Virus record (IMG/VR): IMGVR_UViG_3300050821_001672
Coordinates: 1-53,954 of that record
Length of the DNA: 53,954 bases
Direction: 5' to 3' (one strand)
DNA from: a virus
In this document: positions 288 through 53,954 of the stretch, in pieces
Layout of the letters: each line of letters opens with the position of its first letter
Position numbering within the stretch: the first letter of the stretch is position 1
Notes under the pieces: model-generated
What the model was told of the DNA's origin: nothing
Databases searched by the model: none
What the model saw: only the letters and a program-made list of their open reading frames with translations
Program-made: the position numbers and the translations under genes

Positions 288-330
288 TGTGACGTAGTTC
301 ACGACCGCGCGGTCAGTTTTGCCCCATAAT
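288..330 (+). promoter_or_regulatory. Early promoter P1: CRP-like box, palindromic operator, -10
   Basis: TGTGA-CGTAGT-TCACG at 288-303 resembles a CRP box (TGTGA-N6-TCACA). GACCGCGCGGTC at 303-314 is an exact palindrome. CATAAT at 325-330 is a good -10. The predicted start is near 337, placing the CRP-like centre at about -41.5, as in class II CRP-activated promoters, with the palindrome over the -35 region. The same arrangement recurs at 28519-28560, 32624-32667, 34880-34922 and 40440-40481. It drives the UvrD-like helicase gene. Confidence 0.8.
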
Positions 331-27405: not shown

Positions 27406-27479
27406 CGGCGTTTCGGTCCTAGTGCGGCTACGATCATGAGAGCGAATGCAAGGGAGAACAATACTAGAATCGGCTCCAT
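27402..27479 (-). CDS. 25-residue single-span membrane peptide
   Basis: MEPILVLFSLAFALMIVAAL followed by GPKRR. A hydrophobic stretch of about 18 residues with a positive C-terminus predicts one membrane helix. Its ATG overlaps the upstream TAA (TAATG) and its TGA overlaps the downstream ATG, so it fits exactly into the coupled chain. Too short for usual gene callers. Confidence 0.6.
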   Translation of the reverse strand: MEPILVLFSLAFALMIVAALGPKRR

Positions 27480-27991: not shown

Positions 27992-28010
27992 AGCCCGACC
28001 GGATGGTCAA

Positions 28011-28274
28011 CTAGAAATGGGAGTTTAATTTTCCCGGTTTGGGCGCCTCGCCATCGTGTAACCGCGCGGTTCCGTAAGCGTACCAATGGCCGCGCGGATC
28101 AAGGTCACACGCTTTGCGCATAGTTTCTTGTACGGCGCCGAGCGCGGCGGCGTGCGACGCGAACGGGCCGCGCAATAAAACGTATTGATCGCCGCGACAC
28201 ACCGAAACGTAATAATTTCCGGGGCGCGGGTCGGGATTGCCGTAATGAAAACCCGCCGGGGGATTATGTATCAT
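28011..28274 (-). CDS. Conserved small phage protein (87 aa)
   Basis: 87 residues from the ATG at 28274, just after the stop of the 77-residue gene and preceded by AAGGG. The core YYVSVCRGDQYVLLRGPFAS, then HAAALGAVQETMRKACDLDP and YGTARL looks like a common phage protein of unknown function. No catalytic motif is evident. Confidence 0.65.
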   Translation of the reverse strand: MIHNPPAGFHYGNPDPRPGNYYVSVCRGDQYVLLRGPFASHAAALGAVQETMRKACDLDPRGHWYAYGTARLHDGEAPKPGKLNSHF

Positions 28275-28278
28275 ACCC

Positions 28279-28512
28279 TTATCGCTTGGCGAGTAGCGCG
28301 TCGAGTTTGGAGGTATCGACGCGCACAAGCGATTCGGCGTACCAAAGCCCGCTATTTCGCGTCGTGCGATAAACTAGTGAAACCTCGTCGCCGACCTGTA
28401 TGTCACGCGGAGCATGGTTGAGAAAATGGGTTTCGCCCGTTTCGTCCTTGAACTGATGATAGTTCGCATGATAGGGGCCGACGTATTTAGCGGTGCGTAT
28501 TGTGCTGTTCAT
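28279..28512 (-). CDS. First gene of the accessory island (77 aa)
   Basis: 77 residues starting MNSTIRTAKYVGPYHANYHQ. The middle, VGDEVSLVYRTTRNSGLWYA, looks like a small beta barrel. The frame is open back to 28662, but the ATG at 28512 is preferred because the promoter at 28519-28560 lies directly upstream and would be inside the gene otherwise. The predicted RNA start falls on the ATG itself, so translation may be leaderless. Function unknown. Confidence 0.65.
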   Translation of the reverse strand: MNSTIRTAKYVGPYHANYHQFKDETGETHFLNHAPRDIQVGDEVSLVYRTTRNSGLWYAESLVRVDTSKLDALLAKR

Positions 28513-28518
28513 GGCGCA

Positions 28519-28560
28519 AGTATGCCTTAGACTGACCGCGCGGTCGCGAACTGCGTCACA
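28519..28560 (-). promoter_or_regulatory. Internal promoter P5 in the late operon
   Basis: On the minus strand TGTGA-CGCAGT-TCGCG (28560-28545), GACCGCGCGGTC (28545-28534, exact palindrome) and CATACT (28524-28519) repeat the layout of the early promoter at 288-330. The predicted start is about 28512. It separates the JAB-like structural gene from the accessory island, so the island can be expressed early and apart from the late genes. Confidence 0.78.
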
Positions 28561-32623: not shown

Positions 32624-32667
32624 TGTGACGTAGTTCACCGACCGTTAGGTCAGGCTAGTAATAATAT
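32624..32667 (+). promoter_or_regulatory. Early promoter P2: CRP-like box, operator, -10
   Basis: TGTGA-CGTAGT-TCACC (32624-32639), GACCGTTAGGTC (32640-32651, one mismatch to the palindrome) and TAATAT (32662-32667). The CRP-like centre is about -42 from the predicted start near 32674. It lies in the divergent gap between TerL and the early operon. The leader CACATTAAACGAACGAGAGG resembles that of the next promoter at 34880. Confidence 0.8.
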
Positions 32668-32947: not shown

Positions 32948-33225
32948 TGACCACGTGCCCCCACGGGAAGCAAGTCGGCGTCGGCTGCTATGTGTGCAAG
33001 GCTGAGCGCGTGCAAGCCGCCATACAAGGCGTTATGCCGCTCGCGTTTCGCCAAGCGCTCGAAAGGGTGACTCCGGACGCCGATTGCGTGCCTGATGCCC
33101 GAGCCGTCGCAATCGTGGCGCTACGCCGCATAGTTGACCGCGCGGTCAGTGACGAGGTAAGCTCGCTCGCGACCGCTGACATTTTGCGAATTGCGCTACG
33201 TGCGCTTAACCAATTGGAGGACTAG
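32947..33225 (+). CDS. Small protein with CxHG...CxxC knuckle (92 aa)
   Basis: 92 residues. The N-terminus CPHGKQVGVGCYVC could bind one metal; the rest is helical. The ATG overlaps the upstream stop. An exact copy of the palindrome, GACCGCGCGGTC, lies inside the gene at 33136-33147 and may act on the gene that follows. Function unknown. Confidence 0.68.
   Translation: MTTCPHGKQVGVGCYVCKAERVQAAIQGVMPLAFRQALERVTPDADCVPDARAVAIVALRRIVDRAVSDEVSSLATADILRIALRALNQLED
33136..33147. promoter_or_regulatory. Exact operator palindrome inside an early gene
   Basis: GACCGCGCGGTC, within TTGACCGCGCGGTCA. TTGACC could act as a -35 and TAAGCT (33158-33163) as a weak -10. No CRP-like box lies upstream. It is about 80 bases before the GTG at 33228. 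Confidence 0.5.
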
Positions 33226-33227
33226 AC

Positions 33228-33884
33228 GTGACCGATTTTACAAACATTCAAGGCGCCTTGCGCTCGCGATTAGCTTACGTGAAGAATGCGGGCGCCATAG
33301 GACCGTCTACATACGCCACGACATATACCGAGCGCGACGTGAATATGATAGGAGTCGCGCTAGATTATATCGAACGGCTAGAGCGCGAAGCATTCGCCCT
33401 GCAAACCTCGAACAACACAATCGCCGCGCAACGCGACCTCGAAATACGGTGTCGTTTGGATAACGCGCACTTGCTGACCGAGGCGGACGAAAAGATCGCC
33501 GCTTTACGCGCCGCGCTCGACGCCGAGGTCGCAATGCGCAATGATTTACGCGCCGAACGGAACAAGCTCAAGGAAGCATACGAGAACGCCGTCGGTGCCC
33601 CCGGCGCGGTGCACGGCCCAGTGTTCGAGCAAGTCAAGGCACAAATTATTAACGCCGTGTACGACGTGCTAAAGGCGAACGGGATCAACCCGACGACGCC
33701 CAAGCCCCGGCCGCGCTTCGTCGTGCAAACGGTCAACGGTTACGGCCCGAGTCGTCGTCCGACCACGTGGTACAAAATCGTCGACACAACAAAGCCCATG
33801 GCGTACGGGTTCGAGCGCGTCGCGGTCGCATACACCGCCAAAGACGCGCGCGACGTGGCGGACTTCTTTAACTTAAAAGCGTGA
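33228..33884 (+). CDS. Coiled-coil early protein (218 aa)
   Basis: 218 residues from a GTG with GGAGG 9 bases upstream. Residues about 47-118 are predicted coiled coil (LDYIERLEREAFALQTSNNT, then EADEKIAALRAALDAEVAMR). The C-terminal third (RFVVQTVNGYGPSRRPTTWY onward) looks like a small globular domain. No family recognised. It is the largest gene of this early cluster. Confidence 0.75.
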   Translation: MTDFTNIQGALRSRLAYVKNAGAIGPSTYATTYTERDVNMIGVALDYIERLEREAFALQTSNNTIAAQRDLEIRCRLDNAHLLTEADEKIAALRAALDAEVAMRNDLRAERNKLKEAYENAVGAPGAVHGPVFEQVKAQIINAVYDVLKANGINPTTPKPRPRFVVQTVNGYGPSRRPTTWYKIVDTTKPMAYGFERVAVAYTAKDARDVADFFNLKA

Positions 33885-34636: not shown

Positions 34637-34884
34637 GGGTCCGCGTCATTCACTACGTGCGCGGCGGCTCGGGTATGGTCGCGAGGTGCGGAACGGCCGC
34701 GCGTACCTTCTCGTGGAATTTGCACGCAACCGAACATCCCGATCGCGTGACATGCCGCGTTTGCCTGTATCACCTCGGCCTGTATATGCCCCTGGTCAAG
34801 CTCAAAGAACATCAGGACGCCGAGTCCGCCGGGCGCGCGAAATATGGCAAACGTGACCCGTATTACGCCGTTACGAATCTGTAA
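34633..34884 (+). CDS. Small early protein with CxxC (83 aa)
   Basis: 83 residues from a GTG (GTGA overlap). IHYVRGGSGMVARCGTAART with VTCRVCLYHL is a Cys pattern frequent in phage small proteins and may bind zinc. It ends just before promoter P3, whose CRP-like box begins at 34880 inside the last codons. Function unknown. Confidence 0.66.
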   Translation: MRVRVIHYVRGGSGMVARCGTAARTFSWNLHATEHPDRVTCRVCLYHLGLYMPLVKLKEHQDAESAGRAKYGKRDPYYAVTNL

Positions 34885-34922
34885 CGTAGTTCACCGACCG
34901 GGTGGTCAGACGTGCCCATACT
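34880..34922 (+). promoter_or_regulatory. Early promoter P3: CRP-like box, operator, -10
   Basis: TGTAA-CGTAGT-TCACC (34880-34895), GACCGGGTGGTC (34896-34907, one mismatch) and CATACT (34917-34922). Predicted start near 34929 puts the CRP-like centre at about -41.5. It drives the genes from 34955 to 37167. Confidence 0.78.
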
Positions 34923-34954: not shown

Positions 34955-35167
34955 ATGAAAAATACGCGCAGTTTAAAAAACATCTTAAATATAATTAATG
35001 ACGCGACCAACCCCGGCGCATTTCGCACCGATCACGAAGCAAACCGCCAGCGCGCACGCGCACGGGCCGCTCGCAATGCGCTGATAAAGAACGGGTACGT
35101 CGAGGGCCGCCATTATCGCGAATCTGATAGCTCGGGACGTCTTTTAGCAATGGGAATTTACCGATGA
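34955..35167 (+). CDS. Small basic early protein (70 aa)
   Basis: 70 residues, MKNTRSLKNILNIINDATNP onward, with an Arg/Ala-rich helix (NRQRARARAARNALI). It is first after promoter P3, with CGGAGCG upstream. Positive charge suggests nucleic acid contact. Function unknown. Confidence 0.65.
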   Translation: MKNTRSLKNILNIINDATNPGAFRTDHEANRQRARARAARNALIKNGYVEGRHYRESDSSGRLLAMGIYR

Positions 35168-38017: not shown

Positions 38018-38381
38018 GTCGTCCACGATATCAGTCCGACGCCCAGTACCGCAATCAGACAGGTCTGTATGGTAAAGTTTGTGAAATTTCACACGTTTAA
38101 ATTGACTCAAAACTAGTCGGACAATGACCGTCAAAGAACCATTACATTCATTGACATACCGTCATGATTGATTTTAAACGATAAATTACCCTCAGGACAT
38201 TAGGACAATGACTTTCCCTATCGCAGACTTTTGAATTTATGCTGTGTTTAGTTATTGAGAGGTATGTAGTAGCTATTGCTAAATTAGTAAACCTAGCATA
38301 AATTGAAACACCGACAATGCACCCAGTCATTGTCCGACCGCAACTACTTGATTTCACTATGTCAATGACTTGGAGGTTTTT
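38018..38381. other. AT-rich non-coding region, candidate origin or pac site
   Basis: No gene is seen here and the base composition is clearly more AT-rich than the rest. GTCGGACAATGAC (38116-38128) has an exact inverted copy, GTCATTGTCCGAC, at 38326-38338, and GGACAATGAC recurs at 38203-38212. GACAATG/CATTGTC (38313-38334) can form a local hairpin. TTGACA-N17-TTAAAC (38151-38179) is a possible promoter for the genes after 38382. The region flanks TerS, so a packaging site is possible as well as a replication origin. Confidence 0.6.
38080..38093. promoter_or_regulatory. Perfect 14-base palindrome
   Basis: TGTGAAATTTCACA, a perfect palindrome about 60 bases before the TerS start. It resembles a CRP box but with a 4-base spacer instead of 6, so it is probably a different operator. 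Confidence 0.5.
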
Positions 38382-38741
38382 GTGCAAAGCGACAATACGA
38401 AAGCTCGACGCGAGGCCGCGAACGCGGGACGTAAGACGTATTTTACCGGCGTGCCTTGCAAGCACGGCCATATGTGCGCCCGATACGTGACGAATGGCGG
38501 GTGTCTAGAGTGCGTGACCATGAAACGCTTAAAGCTACCGGCGCCCGAGTACGTGTTCACGCCGCCCCCGGTGCTATTGTTCGAGCCGATCCGCCCGGAA
38601 CACGTCGAATTGCTAAAGCAATATTTCGTCAATTGGACTGATCAAACGCTCAAAGGCTGGGGATACCGCACGTTCGCCGATGGCCCGATCGTGATCCCAT
38701 ACGAGTTCGTGCCGCGCGCACCCCAAGGCTCAGCAAAATGA
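38382..38741 (+). CDS. Zinc-ribbon early protein (119 aa)
   Basis: 119 residues from a GTG at 38382 with GGAGG 5 bases upstream. YFTGVPCKHGHMCARYVTNG followed by GCLECV is a zinc motif (C-x2-GH...R...C-x2-C) seen in many phage proteins, sometimes joined to nucleases. The C-terminal half has no recognised domain. It starts the plus-strand block after the AT-rich region. Confidence 0.7.
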   Translation: MQSDNTKARREAANAGRKTYFTGVPCKHGHMCARYVTNGGCLECVTMKRLKLPAPEYVFTPPPVLLFEPIRPEHVELLKQYFVNWTDQTLKGWGYRTFADGPIVIPYEFVPRAPQGSAK

Positions 38742-39353: not shown

Positions 39354-39369
39354 TGTGAACCGCGTCACA
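39354..39369. promoter_or_regulatory. Perfect CRP-like box
   Basis: TGTGAACCGCGTCACA fits TGTGA-N6-TCACA at all ten conserved positions. TAAATT at 39388-39393 could be a -10 (centre about -38 to -39). It is about 100 bases before the operator at 39461. Confidence 0.6.
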
Positions 39370-39454: not shown

Positions 39455-39495
39455 TTGACTGACCGATCGGTCAGGATGGGGCCGGACGATATGTT
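39455..39495 (+). promoter_or_regulatory. Operator palindrome before the 39525 gene
   Basis: CTGACCGATCGGTCAG at 39459-39474 is a perfect 16-base palindrome holding the exact GACCG-N2-CGGTC core (39461-39472). TTGACT (39455-39460) just before it resembles a -35. TATGTT (39490-39495) is a weak -10 candidate at a longer spacing. No good CRP-like box lies at the usual distance. Confidence 0.68.
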
Positions 39496-39524
39496 CTATT
39501 AACTTTAAATTGGAGGATGCACAT

Positions 39525-40238
39525 ATGAAATCGAAATACGCTATGACCGAAGCACAGGTCGAAAACCTTGCGCGCGACATTGCAACGGCGCAAGACGTGA
39601 CGAATGGAGGGCGTACTACTTATCTGCGCGTCCTGGTCACGCACATGCAAGCAACGCTCGGCAAAGTGAAACGCGGGCGGCCACTCGCGGTACAAGCACA
39701 GTTGGAAGTGCTTGATACCGTGTCGGGTCGTCTATACCCAGCGGTGTTGCGCGGGATTACCACGCATGACCTTGAGCCCGCGCCGGGCCTGGATCAGGTC
39801 GAGCTTACGCGCCGTAGTATCGAGCGGAATCGTCGATCTACATTCGCGCGCTCGGCTAAATCCACGCTGGGTAATTGGATCAAGGCCGGGGGCGACATGC
39901 GGACCCTTGATCCGGACACGGTGACACGTGACCCTTTGGCGGCTCAAGCGCGCGAGGCTCGCGGTGTGAATGGGGCTGCATACACGATCGACCGGCACCG
40001 CTCAGCGCTCTATCGACTGATCGAAAAGGAAGCCGAGGCCGATCCGGACGCCGCACGCGCGGACATTGAGTCGACCATGGATGCGTTGCAAGCGATCCTA
40101 GACTCACTGAGCCCGAACGGCAATGCGGCTAAACCGGCAGCGCCGACGAGTCGGCCAGGACCGACGATATCGCAAGTGCTGCGCTCGCGGCCCGCTCACA
40201 CTCGCCAACCCGCTCCAAGCGGACGGGCGCACGCGTGA
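39525..40238 (+). CDS. Early protein of unknown function (237 aa)
   Basis: 237 residues from the ATG at 39525 with GGAGG about 10 bases upstream. Largely helical: TEAQVENLARDIATAQDVTN at the start, RRSIERNRRSTFARSAKSTL in the middle, and a Pro/Arg-rich tail. No family recognised; basic and helical composition suggests DNA binding. It sits directly behind a perfect operator, so it should be tightly regulated. Confidence 0.72.
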   Translation: MKSKYAMTEAQVENLARDIATAQDVTNGGRTTYLRVLVTHMQATLGKVKRGRPLAVQAQLEVLDTVSGRLYPAVLRGITTHDLEPAPGLDQVELTRRSIERNRRSTFARSAKSTLGNWIKAGGDMRTLDPDTVTRDPLAAQAREARGVNGAAYTIDRHRSALYRLIEKEAEADPDAARADIESTMDALQAILDSLSPNGNAAKPAAPTSRPGPTISQVLRSRPAHTRQPAPSGRAHA

Positions 40239-40439: not shown

Positions 40440-40481
40440 TGTGATCTAGTTCTAGATTGACCGGGCGGTCGGGGGTAGTAT
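40440..40481 (+). promoter_or_regulatory. Early promoter P4: CRP-like box, operator, -10
   Basis: TGTGA-TCTAGT-TCTAG (40440-40455, second half degenerate), GACCGGGCGGTC (40459-40470, exact) and TAGTAT (40476-40481). The predicted start (about 40488) is 2 bases before the ATG at 40490. The operator is shifted 3 bases compared with the other promoters, but the CRP-like centre keeps its distance to the -10. Confidence 0.7.
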
Positions 40482-40654: not shown

Positions 40655-40876
40655 ATGCCCAAGCCCCGATATGTAATTTTACCTGCCGGATTTGGTGCGG
40701 TCGTTGCCGATCGCGGCTTGCGCGGCGCGTCCGAGATATATACGGACGTTGAGGCGCAATACTTGCTCGAATGGCTCAATGAACGTTCGGCAGGATACCC
40801 GCATTTAGCGCGCTTCGAGGGCGGTAACGACTGGCCGACCGACCACGGCACGCCGCGCCCGGTGCCGCCGTCATGA
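40655..40876 (+). CDS. Early protein (73 aa)
   Basis: 73 residues, MPKPRYVILPAGFGAVVADR onward. ATG directly follows the upstream TAA. The middle (SEIYTDVEAQYLLEWLNERS) is helical. Function unknown. Confidence 0.63.
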   Translation: MPKPRYVILPAGFGAVVADRGLRGASEIYTDVEAQYLLEWLNERSAGYPHLARFEGGNDWPTDHGTPRPVPPS

Positions 40877-41778: not shown

Positions 41779-42019
41779 CGAGACAACGATTCCGCGCGAG
41801 ACGCATCGCCGCATGTTCGATCTTAGGTGCAAGTCAAAGCGCGGCGGTTACCTGTCGCCGGAAGAATTTGATTTCCTTCAAGACTGCTATCGGAAATGGC
41901 CTATCGAATACCAGGCACTACAGCAGGCAGTGTTCGAGGAAACGAAGCCATTCGGCTCACAAGCTGATGCCAGCGCTGACCCTACGGCGCGCGTTGCGCC
42001 GTCTCGTAAAGCGACTTAA
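41771..42019 (+). CDS. Early protein (82 aa)
   Basis: 82 residues, helical (GGYLSPEEFDFLQDCYRKWP). Overlaps the previous gene by 8 bases and the convergent primase gene by 38. It ends the plus-strand block; no terminator is visible between the two. Function unknown. Confidence 0.64.
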   Translation: MANETTIPRETHRRMFDLRCKSKRGGYLSPEEFDFLQDCYRKWPIEYQALQQAVFEETKPFGSQADASADPTARVAPSRKAT

Positions 42020-44441
42020 TCAAACCCGCGTCGGCTAAACTTTCGGTCGAATGTCCGCGTCGAATGTAAAGTGTCGGGCGTTGCCCGGCGGTATCCGGCG
42101 TCGTTATGCGGCCGTCGGGTAGTCCGGGGTGCCGAATATACCCGAGAGTGTTTAGCATGTCTTGCCGTTTGTTGCGGGCGATAAATTTCGCCTTGCCGAT
42201 TTTCTCTAGCAGAATGTGCAACGCGCCCGAGTTAATCCAGCCGCCTTTAAAGCCCATGGTGCTAGCGCTAATCGCTTCCTGTATGTCTTGCTCGACAGCC
42301 CCGAGGCCCGCGTTAATCGCCTCGCTCGTCGAGGTCGTGGTCGGTGCGCGGCGGGCGCCGGTCGCAAAATTGTATTTGTCTTGAATGTCGACGGTGCGTA
42401 GGTAGTGCAAAATATTTGCATTGCCGCCCGAGTTGAACCAGTTAAACAAGTTTATAAAATACGCCTCGCCCATACCGTCGCGGCTCAAGTCCTCGGCGGA
42501 TTGCTGCGCACAGTACAGCGGGCAAATGCGCCGATCGTCGGCCGTCTTGCGCAATCCGTCTTTATGGTTCGAGTTGAAAATCATATTAAAACAGACTTCG
42601 CGCGTAATCTGGTCGACACCCTTTTGCTCGATTTCTTGGTGTAGTTCCGTAATCATCGTCTTGAGCTTTTCCCACGTGGATGCCTTGCCCTCGGTCGTCA
42701 TGACTTCCTCGACGCATATCAGCAATTTGCGGTAGAGGTAGCCGTTAAAATGGTTGTCTAGGTTCGATGCGCTGGCCGCGTGGACGTATTCGCGTCCGAG
42801 GCAATAGCTTAGGACCATGGTCAGAAACGATTTACCGTTGCCGGGCACGCCTTGAACGAACAAAGCCCAAGCGGCTTTAGTACCTTGGTTTTGCACGCAC
42901 GCCGCGACGAACGATAGGTAAATCTCGGCGTCGTCGCCGTTAGGAAAAAGTTTTTTAATGTGATTCGTGTACGGAGTCACGTCGCCGGGCGTCGAGTAAA
43001 TTCCAAGATCGCGCCATGTGTTTATAAATTTCAAGCCGTCGCGTTCGAGGATTGCGCCCTCGGGCTCGCGCGGCTCGAACACTGTCGAGCGTACTTGCGG
43101 GAACACATGGAGTTTTGATTGTGTGTAGCAATCCCAGGCGGATTCGCTCGGCGGTGATCCGTCTCGCGCCATGACGTAAGTTCGACGCGCGAACCGCTCG
43201 TCGTTATCAAATTGCTTTTTGTCGTTCGTGTGCCCCTCGGGGAGCATGATTTCGGCGATATCTTTAACGTACATGCACCCCTTGAACATTTCGACTTGTG
43301 CGTCGACGGTGATTACGTTACCGATTCCGGTTTGCGGCCCCAATGGCTCGGGCATTTTGTCAGGGACAGCGGGCGTTGAGGGCGGCGGCAATGGCACGCC
43401 GTCCGCGTTATAGGTCAATGGAGGCGGTTCGACACTTGGAGGCTTAGGAACGCTCGACTCGTTAGTGGGATCGGTTCGCAAAACCCCGTCGTCGGGTTTC
43501 TGACGATAATAGCTCTTTTGCACGGCGGCGCGGACGATAGTACCGTGCAAATAGTCGTTCCGATCCCATTTCGCACGTTTAAGCGCGGATTGCTGCATAA
43601 GCCGTAACATGCGATTGCAATCCCCGCCAGTCCAGAACCCCAAATGGTTCGCGAGGGCGAGGTCGGCGGATGATCCGTCATACGTTTTACCTGTCGATTG
43701 AGCGGGGAACGCCCGCGCGAGCTTGCTTTCGTCAGCGTACCAAAGGTCGGCGAATGATGCGCGGGAACCGAATACGGCTTGCGCGGCGGGGCGCGCGGCC
43801 AGTGCCCGGCGGATTAGCTCGACGTCGTCGCTCGGACCGTCCCACGTGGCGTTAGGCTCGGTTGTCCACGTGTCCGGCGCGCTGGCGTCCGAGTTCGGGA
43901 CGAAATAGTCGGCGATCAGTTTGTCGAGCATCGGCGTAGCGTCGAACGTGGGCGAGCCGACGGCGTTCGTCCCGGTGATCCCTATAAACCTTAGCTCGTC
44001 GTAAAATTCGAGGTGCAAAGGGACGTTTTTTTTCTTGTGCGGCGGCATTTTTCCGGTATACGAGAAAAATATATGCAAGCCCTCACCGCGTTGGCTGACC
44101 TCGATATATGCGCCTTGGAAACGCGAGCAAAGTTCCTGCGACAGTGGGGACCATTCACCGCCGACGAGCGCTTTGTCGATATCGATACAGGCAATTCCGC
44201 AATTGTCGAACAACACAAATCCGATACCATATTGAGCGTGTCCGGTTTGGACGTTCAAATAATCGGCGTACTCTTTTGCGACTGTGCCGCGCAGCCAAAC
44301 CGCCGGGTTCGTGACGGAAACTGGGTAAAGCGTTGTGGGATCAATGGGGACCTTTGTCTCGCGCTCGATCCCATCGACTACGATAACGCGGGCGCGGTCG
44401 TATACGATCCATTGGACCCGCTGGGCGAATTCCTGAAACAC
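41982..44441 (-). CDS. Primase-helicase: AEP-like primase with SF3 helicase
   Basis: 819 residues. N-terminal half: CIDIDKAL (85-92) carries the D-x-D of an archaeo-eukaryotic-type primase/polymerase, followed by SQRGEGLHIFF (116-126) and LEFYDELRFIGITG, like NrS-1-type primase-polymerases. C-terminal half: LFVQGVPGNGKSFL (Walker A, near 537), LLICVEEVMT (Walker B) and NHKDGLRKTADDRRICPLY as in D5/SF3 helicases (DUF5906 type). It would start and unwind replication forks. Last gene of the minus-strand operon. Confidence 0.87.
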   Translation of the reverse strand: MFQEFAQRVQWIVYDRARVIVVDGIERETKVPIDPTTLYPVSVTNPAVWLRGTVAKEYADYLNVQTGHAQYGIGFVLFDNCGIACIDIDKALVGGEWSPLSQELCSRFQGAYIEVSQRGEGLHIFFSYTGKMPPHKKKNVPLHLEFYDELRFIGITGTNAVGSPTFDATPMLDKLIADYFVPNSDASAPDTWTTEPNATWDGPSDDVELIRRALAARPAAQAVFGSRASFADLWYADESKLARAFPAQSTGKTYDGSSADLALANHLGFWTGGDCNRMLRLMQQSALKRAKWDRNDYLHGTIVRAAVQKSYYRQKPDDGVLRTDPTNESSVPKPPSVEPPPLTYNADGVPLPPPSTPAVPDKMPEPLGPQTGIGNVITVDAQVEMFKGCMYVKDIAEIMLPEGHTNDKKQFDNDERFARRTYVMARDGSPPSESAWDCYTQSKLHVFPQVRSTVFEPREPEGAILERDGLKFINTWRDLGIYSTPGDVTPYTNHIKKLFPNGDDAEIYLSFVAACVQNQGTKAAWALFVQGVPGNGKSFLTMVLSYCLGREYVHAASASNLDNHFNGYLYRKLLICVEEVMTTEGKASTWEKLKTMITELHQEIEQKGVDQITREVCFNMIFNSNHKDGLRKTADDRRICPLYCAQQSAEDLSRDGMGEAYFINLFNWFNSGGNANILHYLRTVDIQDKYNFATGARRAPTTTSTSEAINAGLGAVEQDIQEAISASTMGFKGGWINSGALHILLEKIGKAKFIARNKRQDMLNTLGYIRHPGLPDGRITTPDTAGQRPTLYIRRGHSTESLADAGLIKSLYETAQRAP

Positions 44442-44449
44442 GCGGCCCT

Positions 44450-44737
44450 CTAGGCTGCGATCAATTTGACGTGTCGACGTGCTTTTTGCCGCAGCGAGCG
44501 TGGAGCGTTAATCGCGTCCTTGTGCCCCTCAGCTAAACCTTGAGCGACGATAATCGAGAGTTCGAGTTCGATACCTCGGCGGATGATCGCATCGTGTAGG
44601 CCCGGAATTGATTTGAAATGATACGACACCGTGGCGAGCGCACATTTCGCTTTAGTTGCGGCCATTCGGCGCGTAACGTTGCGAAAGCCAACGCGAGTCG
44701 CCAGTTCGACGGCACCGTCGAGTATTTCTTGCTTCAT
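44450..44737 (-). CDS. Minimal TetR-type DNA-binding protein
   Basis: 95 residues. ILDGAVELATRVGFRNVTRR (5-24) and MAATKAKCALATVSYHFKSI (25-44) match the N-terminal helix-turn-helix domain of TetR regulators, with recognition helix about 33-40 and the YHF that ends it. Full TetR proteins are about 190 residues or more; here the ligand-binding domain is missing and only a basic tail follows (RSLRQKARRHVKL). It overlaps the VRR-NUC gene (ATGA). The palindrome GACCG-N2-CGGTC found at phage promoters has the length and symmetry expected of a TetR operator, and its operon promoter carries one. Binding is inferred. Confidence 0.8.
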   Translation of the reverse strand: MKQEILDGAVELATRVGFRNVTRRMAATKAKCALATVSYHFKSIPGLHDAIIRRGIELELSIIVAQGLAEGHKDAINAPRSLRQKARRHVKLIAA

Positions 44738-45156
44738 ACGGATTTACCTCTAGTGAGCGGGTCATCGTATATTGACTCCCCGGTCGAATCAATAACCCCA
44801 TTCGTAAAATAGGCTTTGCCGCCCATTTCGTTCACCTTGTTTATAAATTTGGCTTGTGCTATCTCGCGGGCGTTACCGGTATATTTCCAGTCTTCGGGCT
44901 TGCACTCGACGGCGTAAAATCGGCCGATCTTTTGGCCGATCATATCCACCGTAATCGTTATAGTTTCTATGCCTATAAGGTCCGAGGATTTCATGTGCTC
45001 ATTGAATTTTTTGGACACATTTCCGAGGCCGAATCGCACTTGACGACCCGTGTCGTCCTCGAACGCGCCCGAGTTGTTGCGCAATAACCAGCGATTACCT
45101 GATCGCGCGGCGGCGAGAGCCGTCAAGGCTTGAACGCGTTTCTCGCTGTCGCTCAC
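44734..45156 (-). CDS. VRR-NUC nuclease
   Basis: 140 residues. RNNSGAFEDD, then KSSDLIGIETITITVDMIGQ, FYAVECKPEDW and AQAKFINKVNEMGGKAYFTN give the D...E-x-K pattern of the VRR-NUC branch of PD-(D/E)XK nucleases. Phage members act on branched DNA during replication or recombination. It lies between the SF2 helicase and primase, a usual grouping. Confidence 0.87.
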   Translation of the reverse strand: MSDSEKRVQALTALAAARSGNRWLLRNNSGAFEDDTGRQVRFGLGNVSKKFNEHMKSSDLIGIETITITVDMIGQKIGRFYAVECKPEDWKYTGNAREIAQAKFINKVNEMGGKAYFTNGVIDSTGESIYDDPLTRGKSV

Positions 45157-45395
45157 TTCGGACCCCAGCGCACCGCGCTATAGGTCCCGAAAAAACAGCC
45201 GATTGCGAAGCACGCCCCGAGCAAGTGATCGTGCGTGTATTCGATCACGTTAAACATGCCGATAATGACCAGCACTAGCGACCATATGGCCGCGAGCAAT
45301 GGCCGTTTTTTCCCGGCCCAGTGCATATATAAAATCCACGCCCAATCAAGTGCGACACCAGATAAAAATACTATTGCTGCGATCATGTGGTCCAT
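45153..45395 (-). CDS. Small membrane protein (80 aa)
   Basis: 80 residues with two or three predicted membrane helices (about 4-24, 31-50 and 57-74). It overlaps the helicase gene by 13 bases and the VRR-NUC gene by 4. No family recognised. Its place in a replication operon is curious. Confidence 0.6.
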   Translation of the reverse strand: MDHMIAAIVFLSGVALDWAWILYMHWAGKKRPLLAAIWSLVLVIIGMFNVIEYTHDHLLGACFAIGCFFGTYSAVRWGPK

Positions 45396-47095
45396 TCCTC
45401 TATGCGTTCAATGGGGACGACGCCCCGTTTATCTAACACTCGCTGAATTTGCACTCGTAATTCGTCGGCCTCAGCAACACCGAGAGTTTGCGCCGACATA
45501 ACATCGATACCAAACTCTAGCCAAAATTTCTTTTGCCCGACGCGGATTGTGTGCCCCTCGTGGGCCATGAGCGCGCCGTAAAGCGCGATTGTCTTCCGCA
45601 ATGCCGTTTGTGCAACCTGTCGGTTTAAGTGATTGCGGATTACGGTTGCGGGCGGTGCGCCGTCGGGTATCCTGACCGGACCGTCGACGCGGCCTATCTC
45701 GCGGCGCATCGCCAGCAAAATAGCCTCGTCGAGTAATACCATGTCACCCTCGACGGCCTCGGGTGAGCCTCGACCGCCGGGGGTAACAGGGTGCCCGCAA
45801 TGCTCGCACGCCGTTAGATAGCGCGGGAATGGTTGCAGACATTCCACACACGAGCGCAACAAAAGAATATCGTTTTTACCCCGCGCCGCTTTTTCGCGGC
45901 GGTTCAAACTGTACTCGCGGGTCACATCGGGGAGGCCGTGCCGTAGCGTATTTTGCACGTGGTCGATTATCAGCGCGCGCGGCTTGCTCGACGCGGCAAT
46001 GTGCGCGAGACGTTCGACGTCGGTGAAATGGTCCCAGTTAGCCGCAAGCTCGGACGAGATATCGAGACGCAACGGCCGTCCGCATTGCTGGGCGAACAAT
46101 TGGAATGAGTTCGTCGGCCGGGCCATGCTGATAACCTCGACGGCCGGAACGTCCACGCCCTCAGATAGCACCTCTACCGCGATCATTTGCATAATGCGCC
46201 GCTCGCGGAATTGCTGCATGAGACTTGCGCGCACCGCGAGAGGGGTTTCACCTGTGATGATTTCGGCGGGAATACCGCGCCGCCGATATTCATCGTAGAA
46301 TTTGCCCGCAGCCTCAATATCTACGGCGAAGGTAATCCCGAGCTTGCCGGACGCGAATTGCATGTAGGCGCCCACGACATCGCCGGTTATCGTCGACGAC
46401 GCATTGACCGCCGCGCGCAATTCTTTATAGTTGTATTCGCCTTGCGGTCCTACATGGACGCCCGCAAGATTGACATCGCTTTTCGGACAGCAAATACGAT
46501 AATCCGACAAAAAACCCCGATCAATAAGAGTACGACCGCTAGGCCCAATAACAACGCGATCCACAAGCCCGTCGGAATTGCGGCCAAGGCCGAGGCCATC
46601 CCCCCGTATAGCGTGCGCCGTAGGCAGTAGCCCGCGCGCGTTAACGAACATGCCCATCGCACGGCCCCATTTGTTTTCCTTAAGGACATGGTGACCCTCG
46701 TCTATGACGGTGAGTTGCACTCGATCGAACCACGGGTCGACCGTGCGGTCGCGGCGAATGAGTGTATCGACTCCCGCTACTTTTGCTTGCGCGTGCGGGG
46801 AGTAGTGTGAATAGCCGTGCGTTTCCATTTCGGCCGCAACTATCTGGCGAATGATCGTATTAGGCGCAATGATAGAATGCGGAACGGCCTCACGATTGAG
46901 GGCGAGAGATAATTGCGCTAGCAATTCTTGCCTATGCGCAATGACGCACGTCGGGACGTTGTACGCTTTGATTATATCGCCGATCATGACCGTTTTACCC
47001 GATCCCGTGGGCGATACCATCATGACATTACCGGCGCCCTCGTTCCACGCGCGGTACACGTCGTCGACTATCTGACGCTGAAAATCTCTAAGCAT
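45383..47095 (-). CDS. SF2 DNA helicase with C-terminal zinc finger
   Basis: 570 residues from the ATG at 47095; an open frame extends back to 47224 but would cover the membrane protein gene. Motifs: SPTGSGKT (28-35), IDEGHH (131-136), VLSEGVDVPAVEVISMARPT and QQCGRPLRL (motifs V and VI). A Cys4 finger CVECLQPF...CEHCG follows (about 425-445). It is a RecG/SSL2-like type III-restriction-type helicase and works with the primase and polymerase. Arg finger in QQCGRPLR. Confidence 0.9.
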   Translation of the reverse strand: MLRDFQRQIVDDVYRAWNEGAGNVMMVSPTGSGKTVMIGDIIKAYNVPTCVIAHRQELLAQLSLALNREAVPHSIIAPNTIIRQIVAAEMETHGYSHYSPHAQAKVAGVDTLIRRDRTVDPWFDRVQLTVIDEGHHVLKENKWGRAMGMFVNARGLLPTAHAIRGDGLGLGRNSDGLVDRVVIGPSGRTLIDRGFLSDYRICCPKSDVNLAGVHVGPQGEYNYKELRAAVNASSTITGDVVGAYMQFASGKLGITFAVDIEAAGKFYDEYRRRGIPAEIITGETPLAVRASLMQQFRERRIMQMIAVEVLSEGVDVPAVEVISMARPTNSFQLFAQQCGRPLRLDISSELAANWDHFTDVERLAHIAASSKPRALIIDHVQNTLRHGLPDVTREYSLNRREKAARGKNDILLLRSCVECLQPFPRYLTACEHCGHPVTPGGRGSPEAVEGDMVLLDEAILLAMRREIGRVDGPVRIPDGAPPATVIRNHLNRQVAQTALRKTIALYGALMAHEGHTIRVGQKKFWLEFGIDVMSAQTLGVAEADELRVQIQRVLDKRGVVPIERIEEWTT

Positions 47096-47327
47096 TCTTG
47101 CGCAGCCACGCGTTATAAAATCCGCGCGCCCATGCAAAAGTGTAGACAAACGCCGAGGCGAAAATTCCCCACTGGTGGTGCGTGTACGTCGTGTAAAACC
47201 AGAACGGCTCGGACAGCAACCCAAGGACCGGGCCGAACCGGCGAACCTTTTCGCGGTGATCGTTTACGAGCAACATTGCTCCCATGCAAAAAACGATAAT
47301 GCAAACTTGAGAAATGATGTCGATCAT
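47088..47327 (-). CDS. Small membrane protein (79 aa)
   Basis: 79 residues. N-terminal membrane helix (MIDIISQVCIIVFCMGAMLL) and a second hydrophobic aromatic part (WGIFASAFVYTFAWARGFY). It overlaps the HNH stop by 4 bases and the helicase start by 8. Function unknown. Confidence 0.62.
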   Translation of the reverse strand: MIDIISQVCIIVFCMGAMLLVNDHREKVRRFGPVLGLLSEPFWFYTTYTHHQWGIFASAFVYTFAWARGFYNAWLRKNA

Positions 47328-47650
47328 GCGAATAGGTCCCTTATGGCTTTACCTTCCCGGCGGGTTTTGTAGGCTTCGATCGAATGGAGCGGCGCATCGT
47401 AAATCAAATGGCATCGTTGGCACAAGGCTGCGAGGTTCGATTGATCGCAATTCGTCCGATCGTGGTCGAGGTGTGCGGCCTGTATAAACACGATTGACCC
47501 GGTAATCGGGTGAAACCATCTATGGCGGGCGCCGCAATGCTGGCATGTGTTATTAGCGCGCTCGCGGCATTCCCGGGAAATGCGCCGCCAACCTTTCGGA
47601 TATTGGGCCTTTTTGATTTTCCATCGAGCCCAGCGCGCGGTTATTGACAT
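47324..47650 (-). CDS. HNH endonuclease
   Basis: 108 residues. CQHCG (36-40), AAHLDHDRTN (58-67), SNLAALCQRCHLIYD (71-85): a full HNH motif with zinc-binding Cys pairs, His63 as general base. It is the first gene of the minus-strand operon. It could be a free-standing homing nuclease or part of packaging or host DNA cleavage. The predicted RNA start lies only 3 bases before the ATG. Confidence 0.87.
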   Translation of the reverse strand: MSITARWARWKIKKAQYPKGWRRISRECRERANNTCQHCGARHRWFHPITGSIVFIQAAHLDHDRTNCDQSNLAALCQRCHLIYDAPLHSIEAYKTRREGKAIRDLFA

Positions 47651-47700
47651 CGTGTTCGCATCGTACTAGCCTACTGACCGCACAGTCAATCCACGATTCG
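47644..47700. promoter_or_regulatory. Divergent promoter region with shared operator
   Basis: Minus strand: TTGACT (47689-47684), 18-base spacer, TACGAT (47665-47660), start about 47653, for the operon with the TetR-like gene. Plus strand: TTGACA (47644-47649), 17-base spacer, TAGCCT (47667-47672), for the gene at 47710. GACCGCACAGTC (47676-47687, one mismatch to the palindrome) overlaps the minus -35 and the plus start. One protein bound here could control both directions. Confidence 0.68.
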
Positions 47701-49498: not shown

Positions 49499-50658
49499 CA
49501 GCGCACGCCGTGATCGCACCGTCGAGCCTCGCGCGCATCGTCCAATGCCCGGGCTCGTTCGTATTGTGCAAGCCGTACGCCGACGTGCAAACCGACGCGA
49601 GTCGCGAGGGCACGGTCGCGCACCATGTCGCTATGGTGTTCGCTATTGCCAGCGGCCGAGACGGCATAACGCCTAACTCGGGTTGCGGAATACTCCCGCA
49701 AGTCGGTGACACACTCATCGGGCTAGGCCCCGAGTTTGAGGGCGTGCGCGTCGATCAAGAAATGATCGAGGGCGCTAAAATGTACGCCGAGGCTTTGGAG
49801 GGCTTCGCCGGAAACCCTGAGCAAACGATCAACATTCCGCGTATCCATCCGATGTTGTGTTTTGGCACACCCGATTTTTGGCAATACTCCAAAAACACGC
49901 GTACGCTGAGAATCACCGATTATAAGTACGGACACGCTTACGTCGAGGTGTTCGAGAATTATCAGCTAATTGCCTACGCGGCTGGAATCCTCGATAAACT
50001 CGCCGCCGAGGGCGTGTTGCTTGAGTTCGAGACGATCGTCGAGTTTATGATCGTGCAGCCTCGGTGCTACTCGGCGGACTCGCCCGTCCGCACGTGGACG
50101 ACCTCAACGTCTAATTTGCGCGTGCTGATAAATGTCGCCCACGATCGCGTAGCCGATGCGCTCGGACCGAATCCGGAATGCGTGACCGGCCCCGAGTGCT
50201 TACATTGCGACGCCCGAGTGAATTGCGACACAGCCAGCCGTGCGGGCGCATCACTAGTTCAATTCGCGGGTCGGGCCGAGGCCCTTGCGCAATCAGGCGC
50301 CGACATGGGCGTTCGCTTGAACCTCATAAATGCGGCCATTACTATGCTCAAGGCGATAGGCTCGGGGCTAGAAGAACAGATTATAGCGACGTTGCGAAAG
50401 GGCGGCACCGTTCCATTTTTCAAAGTCGACTACTCCAAGCCCCGCGAGACATGGGCGAAGTCGGTCGCCGAGGTGAAATTGCTCGGGCAATTGTGCGGCG
50501 TCGTCCTAGTAAAAGAGGATTACGACCTGACGCCCAAGCAAGCGGTAAAAAAGGGCATTGACCGAGCGGTCATTGACAAGTACGCTTTCACGCCGAACGG
50601 GGCGGCCAAATTAGTCCCCGACAATCTTTCAAGCCACGCGAGGATATTTAAGAAATGA
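49495..50658 (+). CDS. DUF2800 Cas4/RecB-like nuclease
   Basis: 387 residues from the ATG at 49495 (ATGA overlap). REGTVAHHVA and FGTPDFWQYSKNTRTLRITD followed by YKYGHAYVEVFENYQLIAYA give the H...D...(D)YK...Q..YA signature of Cas4-type PD-(D/E)XK nucleases. Cys18 (IVQCPGS) plus the C-terminal CLHC...C group could hold an iron-sulfur cluster. It would process DNA ends in recombination. It contains an exact operator palindrome at 50560-50571. Confidence 0.87.
   Translation: MTAHAVIAPSSLARIVQCPGSFVLCKPYADVQTDASREGTVAHHVAMVFAIASGRDGITPNSGCGILPQVGDTLIGLGPEFEGVRVDQEMIEGAKMYAEALEGFAGNPEQTINIPRIHPMLCFGTPDFWQYSKNTRTLRITDYKYGHAYVEVFENYQLIAYAAGILDKLAAEGVLLEFETIVEFMIVQPRCYSADSPVRTWTTSTSNLRVLINVAHDRVADALGPNPECVTGPECLHCDARVNCDTASRAGASLVQFAGRAEALAQSGADMGVRLNLINAAITMLKAIGSGLEEQIIATLRKGGTVPFFKVDYSKPRETWAKSVAEVKLLGQLCGVVLVKEDYDLTPKQAVKKGIDRAVIDKYAFTPNGAAKLVPDNLSSHARIFKK
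50560..50571. promoter_or_regulatory. Exact operator palindrome inside DUF2800 gene
   Basis: GACCGAGCGGTC, in ATTGACCGAGCGGTCAT, 84 bases before the DUF2815 gene. No clear -10 follows at the usual distance. Confidence 0.45.
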
Positions 50659-51563
50659 GTAATTTACGTGCACAAGTTCTGTTGCCGACCGGTCGAATCG
50701 TCATGGGCGATTTGTACAAGGCATCGGACAAGGACGCGGACGGTAAGCCGCGCCTCGTCAAGACGGGAGCAAACGCCGGACAGCCGACGCAGCAATTTTT
50801 CGCCGCCGTCGCAATCAAAAAGACAGTAGCGCCCGGCGCGCACTGGGCGGGCGAGCCGTGGGCCGCCGAATTCTGGCGGGTCGGTAACGCGGCGTTCCCA
50901 AAGATCGCCGAGGGTCCCTTGTTCTCGTGGAAAATCGTGGACGGCGATAGCGCGGTCCCGAACAAAAAAGGCATTGCGCCGAACACGCGCGAGGGCTACC
51001 CGGGTAACTGGGTTATCTCGATTTCGTCGAGATATGCGCCCAAGATCGTGAACGAGGACGGTTCCGCATACTTGCTCGATCCGGGTATGGTGAAGTGCGG
51101 CGATTACGTGCAAGCCCTGGTTTCGGTCGACGGCAACGCGTCCACACAGAACCCCGGCATTTACGTCAACCACGAACTGTACTCGTTCCAAGGCATCGGC
51201 GAGCGTATCGTGACGGGCGTCGACCCGGCGAGCGTCGGATTCGGCAAAGGTCCCAAGCCTCCCGGGGTTCTACCGGTTCCTGCCGGACAGATGAAAGCCC
51301 CGCCAGCGAGCGCACCAGCCGCGCCGGGCGCCCCGCCGCCTGTCCCGGGTGCACCGCCAGCCCCCGCCTCCCCGATCCCGCTCGCGCCCGCTGAGGGGTT
51401 TTTAAAGACTCCCGCGCCGCCAGCCCCGCCAGCACCTCCCGCGCCGCCAGCGGCGGGTAAGACGCTCACGGCAAAGGCCGGGGCGCATACTTACGAGGCC
51501 CTAATCGGTGCCGGATGGACTGACGCGACGTTGATTGCAAATGGCATGATGGTGGGTCCCTAA
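50655..51563 (+). CDS. DUF2815 ssDNA-binding-like protein
   Basis: 302 residues. The N-terminal core (about 1-190: VLLPTGRIVMGDLYKASDKD, NKKGIAPNTREGYPGNWVIS, YLLDPGMVKCGDYVQALVSV) is the DUF2815 domain, an OB-like ssDNA-binding protein of phage replication modules. A Pro/Ala-rich linker (about 205-268) leads to a short helix YEALIGAGWTDATLIANG, likely a partner-binding tip. ATGA overlap with DUF2800. Confidence 0.86.
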   Translation: MSNLRAQVLLPTGRIVMGDLYKASDKDADGKPRLVKTGANAGQPTQQFFAAVAIKKTVAPGAHWAGEPWAAEFWRVGNAAFPKIAEGPLFSWKIVDGDSAVPNKKGIAPNTREGYPGNWVISISSRYAPKIVNEDGSAYLLDPGMVKCGDYVQALVSVDGNASTQNPGIYVNHELYSFQGIGERIVTGVDPASVGFGKGPKPPGVLPVPAGQMKAPPASAPAAPGAPPPVPGAPPAPASPIPLAPAEGFLKTPAPPAPPAPPAPPAAGKTLTAKAGAHTYEALIGAGWTDATLIANGMMVGP

Positions 51564-51741: not shown

Positions 51742-53954
51742 ATGCTCGCCGGTACGAAAGTTCGCGCATTCCACGGTGTCAGCACCGTCTTACCCGACAT
51801 TGATTTCGAGACAAGCTCGGACGCCGGGTACGTGTACGATTTTGCCGAGCGCAAATGGGGCTCGCTCCCCGGATACGACGCACAGAATCGCGGCCTGCCC
51901 GCCGTGGGAACGCGTATCTATGTAGAACACTGGTCGTTTCGACCGCTCATGATTTCATGGAACCTCAAGGACGGCGGACCGGCCGGTCAATGGGAACCCG
52001 GCGAGAATCCCGCCACACTCGAACCGCTGTTCGCCTATATCCGCGCTGGCGGGCTCATGGAGGCACAAAACTCCATGTTCGAGTTCACCGTTTGGAATTG
52101 CTATTGCGTGCCGGTCCTTGGTTGGCCGGAAATTAAAATCGAGCAAATGCGTTGCTCGGCCTCGAAACTGCGCGCCGCCGGGTTTCCCGGATCGCTCGGC
52201 CCAGCGGGCGAAGTCCTCGACATAGAACACAAAAAGGACAAAGAGGGCGAGCGGCTAATGAAAATATTTTCAATGCCGCACAATCCAACAAAAAAGGACC
52301 CGACCACACATACGCTACCGTGGCAAGCCCCGTTTGAATGGCAAGCCTACAAGGCGTACAACCGAACCGATATCGTCGCCGAGTCCGAGGTTTCGATCGC
52401 GTGCCCCGATCTCTCGTCGTTTGAGCTTGAGGTGTGGTTAGAGGATCAACGCATCAATTTTCGCGGGATGCAAGTCGACTCTTTCAACGTCGACAATTGT
52501 ATCGCGGTAGTCGAGCAAGCATACGAGCGTTACGGCGCCGAATGCCGTGCGCTCACGGGCCGGATTGAGCCAACAGAATTACAGCAATTGCTCGCATGGT
52601 TGCACAGTCAAGGGGTGCACCTCGACAACATGCAAGCGAAAACGATCGAGGCGGCCGTCGAACGTTTGACGCCGCTCGGATACTCGCCGGGCTTGCGCGT
52701 CCTGCAATTGCGCCAAATGCTCGGGAGCGCGAGCGTTAAAAAATTGTTCTCGCTTCGCGCCCGCACGTGCCGCTCGGGCCGCGTTTATGACATGTATCTA
52801 TACATGGCGACACATCATGGCCGATGGGGCGGTTATGGGCCTCAGCCGCAAAATCTCTATAAAGGCGACTGGCACACGCCCGAGGAAGTCGACGCCGCGT
52901 TAAAGATACTCGCTTCGCGCGATCTTGCCACGGTTGAGGCCGCATATCCGGGCCTATCTGCGCTCGACGTGGTTAATAACGTCTTGCGGTCACTGTTCAT
53001 TGCGGCGCCCGGCCACAAGCTCGTATCGTCGGACTATTCCGCCATCGAAGCCGTGTGTCTTGCCGCGCTCGCGGGCGAGCAATGGGTACTCGACGTGCTG
53101 GCAACCCACGGTATGATTTACGAGGCGACAATTTCCCGCATGGCGGGGATTCCGTTCGAGGACTTCGTAAAACACCGCGTCGACACGGGCGGCGTTGCGA
53201 CCTACTCGCCCGAGGGAAAGTTACTATCGATCAAAGGCGGCAAGCACCACCCGTTACGCCAGCAAGGCAAGCTCGCGGACCTCTCGGGCGGCTACGCCTC
53301 ATGGATAGGCGGATGGAAAAAGTTCGGCGCCGACAAATACTACAAGTCCGATTACGAAATGAAACAGGCGATTTTAAGCTATCGCCGCGCGCGCCCAGCT
53401 ACAGAGGAATTTTGGGGCGGCCAGACGCGAGGCAAATTCACCGACTCGTGCCGACAGGAATTATATGGACTTGAGGGCGCCGCAATTTCCGCCGTTCTCA
53501 ATCCCGGCATATGCTACCGCGTCGGGCTAATCGGCTTCCAAATGAGTGCGGCCGATGACGTGCTTTACATGCAATTACCGTCCGGCCGACTGATTTCGTA
53601 CCACACGCCGCGTTTGACGCCCGCAACCCGCGACTACGCCGAACCGTGGGAACTCGCTCTATCGTACTGGGGCTGGAATACGAACCCGGACAAGGGACCG
53701 CCCGCGTGGATCCAAATGGACCTCTATGGCGGGGTTTTAACTCAGAACGCTTGCGGCGGCACGGCGCGCGACATTATGGCCCATGGGATGCTCAACGTTG
53801 CCCGCAAGGGGTATCCTATCGTCATGCACACCCACGATGAAGCGGTCGCCGAGGTTCCCGAGGGATTCGGGTCGGTGATCGAGTTCGAGACGGAATTAAA
53901 CGACTTGCCGGGCTACGCGAAAGCATGGCCGATATTTGCTAAAGGCGGATGGGA
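51742..53954 (+). CDS. DNA polymerase I family, main part (continues at 1-125)
   Basis: About 746 residues in total across the circular join. Start ATG at 51742 with GAGG 6-9 bases upstream. 3'-5' exonuclease: DIDFET (19-24), AQNSMFE and YKAYNRTDIVAE. Polymerase: motif A VSSDYSAIEAVCLAALAG, motif B in RQQGKLADLSGGYASWIGGW (Lys and Gly-Tyr conserved), motif C MHTHDEAV. It replicates the phage genome with the SF2 helicase, primase, DUF2815 and nuclease products. An exact operator palindrome (51977-51988) lies within the gene, perhaps by chance. Confidence 0.94.
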   Translation, partial: MLAGTKVRAFHGVSTVLPDIDFETSSDAGYVYDFAERKWGSLPGYDAQNRGLPAVGTRIYVEHWSFRPLMISWNLKDGGPAGQWEPGENPATLEPLFAYIRAGGLMEAQNSMFEFTVWNCYCVPVLGWPEIKIEQMRCSASKLRAAGFPGSLGPAGEVLDIEHKKDKEGERLMKIFSMPHNPTKKDPTTHTLPWQAPFEWQAYKAYNRTDIVAESEVSIACPDLSSFELEVWLEDQRINFRGMQVDSFNVDNCIAVVEQAYERYGAECRALTGRIEPTELQQLLAWLHSQGVHLDNMQAKTIEAAVERLTPLGYSPGLRVLQLRQMLGSASVKKLFSLRARTCRSGRVYDMYLYMATHHGRWGGYGPQPQNLYKGDWHTPEEVDAALKILASRDLATVEAAYPGLSALDVVNNVLRSLFIAAPGHKLVSSDYSAIEAVCLAALAGEQWVLDVLATHGMIYEATISRMAGIPFEDFVKHRVDTGGVATYSPEGKLLSIKGGKHHPLRQQGKLADLSGGYASWIGGWKKFGADKYYKSDYEMKQAILSYRRARPATEEFWGGQTRGKFTDSCRQELYGLEGAAISAVLNPGICYRVGLIGFQMSAADDVLYMQLPSGRLISYHTPRLTPATRDYAEPWELALSYWGWNTNPDKGPPAWIQMDLYGGVLTQNACGGTARDIMAHGMLNVARKGYPIVMHTHDEAVAEVPEGFGSVIEFETELNDLPGYAKAWPIFAKGGW

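Follow-up and report, generated by a model that had tools for sequence, protein, structure and literature searches.

A short TetR-type gene in the replication operon

The DNA analysed here, a stretch of 53,954 nucleotides from the IMG/VR virus record IMGVR_UViG_3300050821_001672 that we refer to as the window, carries a tetR-like gene within a minus-strand replication operon, together with genes for an HNH protein, a helicase, a nuclease and a primase (Table 1). In most family members, the window included, tetR lies close to helicase, nuclease and primase genes. Gene calls were made as greedy open reading frames and are crude. A near-identity DNA search of phages with the window gave no match.

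The tetR product, P0001, has 95 residues (MKQEILDGAVELATRVGFRNVTRRMAATKAKCALATVSYHFKSIPGLHDAIIRRGIELELSIIVAQGLAEGHKDAINAPRSLRQKARRHVKLIAA). Its residues 5-48 match the Pfam profile TetR_N (PF00440) with an E-value of 2.3e-5 and 24.5 bits, barely over the cut-off of 24, and a profile search matches residues 2-92 to PHROG 8723 (E 3e-20), a family without assigned function. A profile built from 15 family members finds TetR structures, including PDB 9b7y, 5vl9 and 2qop, with E-values from 1e-13 to 1e-6. The C-terminal ligand-binding and dimerisation domain of TetR proteins is absent, and the helix-turn-helix (HTH) is followed by just a short segment with the family-conserved motif I-A-Q-G-L-A..D..A..A-P..L...A. 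A first-pass annotation of this DNA, made from the sequence alone, had described a TetR HTH without a ligand domain, which the Pfam and PHROG matches support, but it had also described a short basic tail, which has to be replaced by this conserved and, as far as can be predicted, probably helical segment. The structure model of P0001 is of low confidence (pLDDT 61, from a two-sequence alignment) and can be used for the helix pattern only.

Homologs were found by tblastn in 34 phage records with P0001 as query and in 95 with the protein of Klebsiella phage SCNJ1-Y; many of them are already annotated as putative TetR regulators. Family proteins are about 92-112 residues long, the exceptions being those of Scuro and SppYZU01, which have 166 residues and a tandem double HTH with a partly degenerate first copy. 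Since this short length is so uniform, the missing ligand domain is a trait of the family and not a truncation in the window. P0001 shares only about 31-48% identity with its operator-bearing relatives, and a search of IMG/VR with P0001 alone retrieved no relative; the four IMG/VR relatives used here (G001-G004) were reached through searches with the primase and tail sheath proteins. Among the proteins common to all compared phages, TetR is the only sequence-specific (HTH) regulator recognised.

Table 1. Genes, predicted sites and related elements. Positions refer to the window unless a genome is named; operators are predictions without binding data.
Feature	Position	Strand	Context
Replication operon with tetR	41982..47650	-	
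HNH gene	47324-47650	-	
Helicase gene	45383-47224	-	
Small ORF	45153-45395	-	
Nuclease gene	44734-45156	-	
tetR-like gene	44450..44737	-	95 aa (P0001); HTH at about residues 5-50, conserved and probably helical C-terminal segment, no ligand-binding domain
Primase gene	41982-44441	-	
Cysteine-dioxygenase-like ORF	27479-27991	-	within the structural gene block
Operator, exact	303..314	+	-10-like CATAAT 18 bp from -35 position; UvrD-type helicase gene 362-1810 downstream
Operator, exact	28534..28545	-	promoter-like (CATACT); upstream of 28011-28328 and the cysteine-dioxygenase-like ORF
Probable operator, one mismatch	32640..32651	+	terminase gene (minus) on one side, early-type plus-strand genes from 32702 on the other; -10-like AATAAT
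Operator, exact	33136..33147	+	TTGACC -35, TAAGCT at -10 position; 80 bp upstream of 33228-33884
Probable operator, one mismatch	34896..34907	+	-10-like hexamer CATACT; upstream of 34955-35167
Operator, exact	39461..39472	+	divergent region, upstream of 39510-40238
Operator, exact	40459..40470	+	TTGACC; upstream of 40655-40876
Palindrome, exact	46739..46750		within helicase gene; may be an operator, a roadblock site or chance
Probable operator, one mismatch	47676..47687	-	upstream of operon HNH - helicase - small ORF - nuclease - tetR - primase
Operator, exact	50560..50571	+	TTGACC-N17-TACGCT; upstream of ssDNA-annealing protein gene 50655-51563
Palindrome, exact	51977..51988		no clear gene context
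Conserved site, helicase 362-1810	window 303; G001 36908		
Conserved site, annealing protein 50655-51563	window 50560; G001 33599; G002 26927; Geezett 37996; CP-T1 4613		
Conserved site, HNH-helicase operon	window 47676; G001 30817; G002 29213; MSW-3 34327		
Conserved site, gene 40655-40876	window 40459; G001 23460		
Conserved site, gene 39510-40238	window 39461; G002 37248		
Conserved site, cysteine-dioxygenase-like ORF	window 28534; G001 10401		
GTGACGTAGTTCAC element	289..302	+	abuts operator 303
GTGACGTAGTTCAC copy	32625-32638	+	
GTGACGTAGTTCAC copy	34881-34894	+	1 mismatch
GTGACGTAGTTCAC copy	28546-28559	-	2 mismatches
GTGACGTAGTTCAC copy	39355-39368	-	2 mismatches
CCACGTGG copies	5328, 5646, 13744, 18344, 23772, 33763, 42672, 43842		
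Tandem-HTH TetR-like gene	Acinetobacter phage Scuro L125:79-579		
Tandem-HTH TetR-like gene	SppYZU01 38065-38565		
Alternative promoter-embedded palindromes	PY6 7107, 8014, 12382, 19992, 28188		
Alternative promoter-embedded palindromes	SFCi1 24421, 37640, 38256		

Palindromic sites and promoters in the window

The palindrome GACCG-N2-CGGTC occurs in the window in eight exact copies, the number given by the first-pass annotation, where about 0.2 would be expected from independent word counts or shuffles. This is slightly more than the 0.05-0.15 given there, and the strong over-representation stands. The excess is confined to one spacing, with eight pairs of GACCG and CGGTC half-sites at spacer 2 and none when the spacer takes any other length between 0 and 19. 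When all palindromes with half-lengths of 4-6 and spacers of 0-12 were scanned without bias, it came out as the strongest of the window, with a log10 p of -10.2 against a best value of -5.9 among 150 second-order Markov shuffles. Allowing up to one mismatch gives 18 sites (4.5 expected). Ten of these have one mismatch, not three as had been counted earlier, and not all are convincing: those at 32640, 34896 and 47676 are probable operators and that at 27997 is a possible one, while those at 124, 6899, 21112, 32212, 36438 and 45674 are near the chance level without promoter or gene context and were rejected. By the crude gene call, a start follows within 150 bp of five of the eight exact sites, compared with 24% of random positions; seven gene-upstream sites had been claimed. 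The exact sites at 46739 and 51977, both inside called ORFs, may be chance occurrences or roadblock sites. A second palindrome, CCACGTGG, is also present in eight copies in the window (0.4-1.4 expected) and in fewer copies in relatives.

With TTGAC(N) as its left half, the operator contains the sigma70 -35 hexamer. In the relatives, a TANNNT follows TTGACN at 17 bp in 38 of 211 oriented sites, compared with about 1% at non-palindromic TGAC, and 53 of 107 palindromes have TANNNT at 16-18 bp on one strand, compared with 12 at a control offset. An operator of Geezett illustrates this arrangement within a promoter: TTGACGAACTCGTCAATGAGGGGTATAGT. No TANNNT peak is seen at the operators of G001 and G002. 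A good -10 element stands at the right distance in 5 of 11 window sites (p 4e-4), a modest test that is partly post hoc, with three of the 11 sites picked with their context in view.

Four window operators are immediately preceded by GTGACGTAGTTCAC or a close variant, which resembles the CRP palindrome GTGA-N6-TCAC. Judged by the distance to the -10 box, the element is centred at about -41.5, the position of a class II activator, and GTGACGCGCGTCAC-like elements occur at similar places in G001 and G002. We infer that a host CRP-like activator acts at these promoters and is opposed by the TetR protein.

Operators and recognition helices in related phages

A search for the gene and the palindromes together in related phages, as the first-pass annotation had proposed, detects short homologs and enriched operators of the same frame in many of them. 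The common frame of the window and its relatives is (T)TGAC-N6-GTCA(A), of 14-16 bp, with TGACCG-N2-CGGTCA as the window version, and genomes with a compatible recognition helix hold 5-17 copies of it. By the unbiased scan, TGACG-N4-CGTCA leads in Jedunavirus, Pantoea phage AAM22 and KsaM-C1 (10-12 copies, 0.12-0.18 expected) and in G001 and G002 (8 copies each), and TGAC-N6-GTCA leads in MSW-3 and PEi21 (12-13 copies). CP-T1 has nine copies of TGAC-N6-GTCA and six of TTGAC-N6-GTCAA, which ranks fourth among its palindromes; TGACA-N4-TGTCA occurs five times in Scuro (0.03 expected) and four times in MR14. The Jedunavirus genomes are near relatives of a single lineage and do not count independently. 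The spacer profile of TGAC and GTCA has its sole peak at 6. Half-site profiles show an invariant GAC followed by a variable base, which is G in Jedunavirus, CP-T1, MSW-3, G001 and G002, A in Scuro, MR14 and G003/G004, and C, then a nearly fixed G, in the window. GACA-N4-TGTC and TGAC-N6-GTCA are enriched in G003 and G004, mostly in called coding sequence; the G003 fragment has no detectable tetR.

In most genomes, 50-90% of the sites have a start codon within the next 150 bp downstream, compared with 20-25% of random positions; the exceptions are G003/G004 and MR14, whose sites fall mostly in called coding sequence. An operator stands directly upstream of tetR in Geezett, SCNJ1-Y, KsaM-C1, AAM22, MSW-3, PEi21, G001, G002 and Scuro. 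For six window sites, the orthologous gene in one or more relatives is also preceded by an operator, although the operator letters differ (Table 1).

Palindromes in related phages that lack the gene would have refuted the proposal, as was recognised at the outset. Of the related genomes, five have no close homolog (Aeromonas phages 4_D05 and AsaM-56, Acinetobacter phage AB1, Pseudomonas phage Orisa02 and Sinorhizobium phage Susan); these contain 0-2 copies of TGAC-N6-GTCA, with no such palindrome enriched, compared with the 5-17 copies of homolog bearers with the right helix. The operator is not used by every family member, a generalisation that we rejected: it was not found in at least ten of them (367.14, 97.13, OsaM, CKB-S1, VP16C, AeroV_348, SFCi1, R9Y2, phiPLPE and SppYZU01). 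In a prospective test on three further phages, Scuro was clearly positive and phiPLPE and R9Y2 were negative.

A different recognition helix accounts for the absence of the sites from these homolog bearers. All operator-bearing genomes have [G/A]-[S/T/I]-[V/I] in this helix (GSVN, GTVS, GIVS or GTVL, and ATVS in the window), whereas genomes without TGAC sites have PPAIS, PPALT, PQAIQ, PPAVQ, TALIQ, NSSVL, APSLV, GQTIN, GLVT or GLIS. In the sister pairs Scuro/SppYZU01 (GTV versus GLV) and G002/phiPLPE (GSV versus GLI), the same S/T-to-L residue differs, and the presence of sites differs together with it. Across the relatives, the operator varies with the recognition helix. The operator-presence label requires three changes on the protein tree; this tree is weakly supported, and therefore the switches are suggestive but not proven to be independent events. 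In PY6 (PP806536.1) and SFCi1 (KX196154.1), where the TetR-like recognition helix differs, other palindromes (GTAGCGC-N4-GCGCTAC and GTTACGTAAC, respectively) lie in TTGAC promoters and are plausibly re-specified operators.

A putative phage-wide repressor and competing readings

We consider it very probable that P0001 is an autorepressor of the TetR type that has no ligand domain and closes early and middle promoters throughout the phage genome. What computation shows is the protein family, the enrichment of the operators and their overlap with promoters, their covariation with the helix, and the conserved positions of the regulon; binding, dimerisation, repression, timing and ligand independence are inferred. 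The phage-wide TetR regulon proposed in the first-pass annotation gains support from the co-occurrence of sites and gene, the covariation with the helix, and the sites upstream of tetR and of orthologous genes, all of it evidence at the level of sequence. The 95-residue protein would act as a dimer, the short helical segment probably serving for dimerisation, and would bind TGACCG-N2-CGGTCA at about nine promoters around the genome. Since the operator's left half coincides with or overlaps the -35 element of host sigma70 promoters, the protein, once bound, should to judge from the geometry keep RNA polymerase off the promoter. The one-mismatch operator at 47676 precedes the operon that carries tetR, which suggests autoregulation, and a tetR gene within the replication operon with an operator at its own promoter suggests a negative-feedback switch. 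TetR would build up alongside the replication proteins and then close the early and middle promoters, those of the helicases, the annealing protein, small early genes and its own operon. With about 5-17 operators per genome, mostly on promoters, one such small protein probably switches off many phage genes together.

The reading that survives best beside this one, although we think it unlikely, is that the protein serves a temperate or carrier-state life style as its immunity (or pseudolysogeny) repressor and is not a lytic temporal switch. Phage-wide operators are a typical trait of immunity repressors, and CP-T1 has been recorded as temperate without known lysogeny genes (PMC3391216). On this account, in which we place equally little confidence, these phages, without integrase or other known lysogeny genes, would use the short TetR protein as a global immunity or dormancy repressor that closes all early promoters through its -35-fused operators and can bring about a carrier or pseudolysogenic state; if true, such dormancy would explain the temperate behaviour of CP-T1. 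However, Jedunavirus phages are, as far as is known, virulent, and tetR lies within the replication operon with no separate immunity region. Phages 138 and phiPLPE, which bear the gene, are also listed as lytic (PMC3391216). A profile search of the window found no Phage_integrase match, but the record may be incomplete, and therefore the absence of lysogeny genes is not conclusive.

It is quite improbable that the protein is an activator, or a dual regulator, recruiting RNA polymerase to middle promoters. Some TetR-family proteins do act as activators, the sites lie at promoters, and four window operators directly follow the class-II-like CRP element. Yet the operator covers the -35 and the spacer, a position typical of repressors, the promoters are already close to consensus (TTGAC with a -10 at 17 bp), and there are autoregulatory sites at tetR itself. 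That another protein, be it a regulator of the host or a phage protein that has escaped recognition, binds the palindromes and that tetR has an unrelated job seems very improbable to us. There are no binding data for TetR, TGAC sites are missing from some phages that have a tetR homolog, and the CRP-like elements adjoining window operators leave room for host regulators; but across phages of hosts as varied as Klebsiella, Vibrio, Edwardsiella, Pantoea and Acinetobacter the sites track tetR and its recognition-helix residues, between sister phages helix and sites change together, and the sites lie immediately upstream of tetR with no other HTH regulator family shared. That the palindromes are merely enriched by chance or codon usage in a GC-rich genome, as two of eight exact sites deep within called genes and the excess of CCACGTGG might suggest, is as good as refuted by the shuffles, the spacer specificity, the gene-upstream bias and the conservation of the operator in phages of 45-60% GC.

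The putative repressor belongs to a known gene family. A comparison of phiPLPE-like myoviruses in 2012 pointed out tetR-like genes in phiPLPE, CP-T1 and 138 without settling what they do (PMC3391216). The first-pass annotation had called the system undescribed in phages; this does not hold for the gene (PHROG 8723; PMC3391216), but no description of operators or a regulon of these phage TetR proteins was found in open-licence papers, and these appear to be undescribed. The PHROG 8723 genes of Jedunavirus, CP-T1, 138, phiPLPE and Yokohamavirus resemble P0001 in family, size and helicase/primase neighbourhood. Their operator-bearing members share its operator frame, although the window operator is fixed as TGACCG-N2-CGGTCA instead of TGACG-N4-CGTCA. 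The closest described phage-wide operator network is that of the mycobacteriophage L5-type immunity repressor, a single repressor with more than 20 stoperator sites spread over the genome (PMC9283540). That repressor (gp71) is monomeric, has two domains and binds 13-bp asymmetric sites, oriented with transcription and placed in intergenic gaps, in a temperate phage, whereas the window has symmetric, mostly promoter-positioned sites, a TetR-type fold and no integrase seen. The C1 repressor of phage P1 likewise has numerous operators dispersed through the genome, all of them at promoters, but its fold differs and its 17-bp sites are asymmetric and serve lysogeny. Classical TetR-family repressors such as TetR, AcrR and BetI share the N-terminal HTH; their promoter-overlapping palindromic operators and autoregulation are predicted for P0001 from strong comparative evidence. 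Unlike them, P0001 is without the C-terminal ligand and dimerisation domain and would control a whole phage and not a single operon for efflux or metabolism. Anti-CRISPR-associated (Aca) repressors are short phage HTH autorepressors on promoter palindromes that act on one operon and, to our knowledge, are not of the TetR type.

These results offer a precise regulon and a function for an unexplained gene in about 95 sequenced phage records, those of Jedunavirus phages of Klebsiella included, and point to a transcription switch that would use TetR-type specificity in phages dependent on the host polymerase. Recognition helices and operators are matched in a natural series from which a specificity code for TetR proteins could be drawn, and the temperate behaviour of CP-T1 without lysogeny genes becomes testable.
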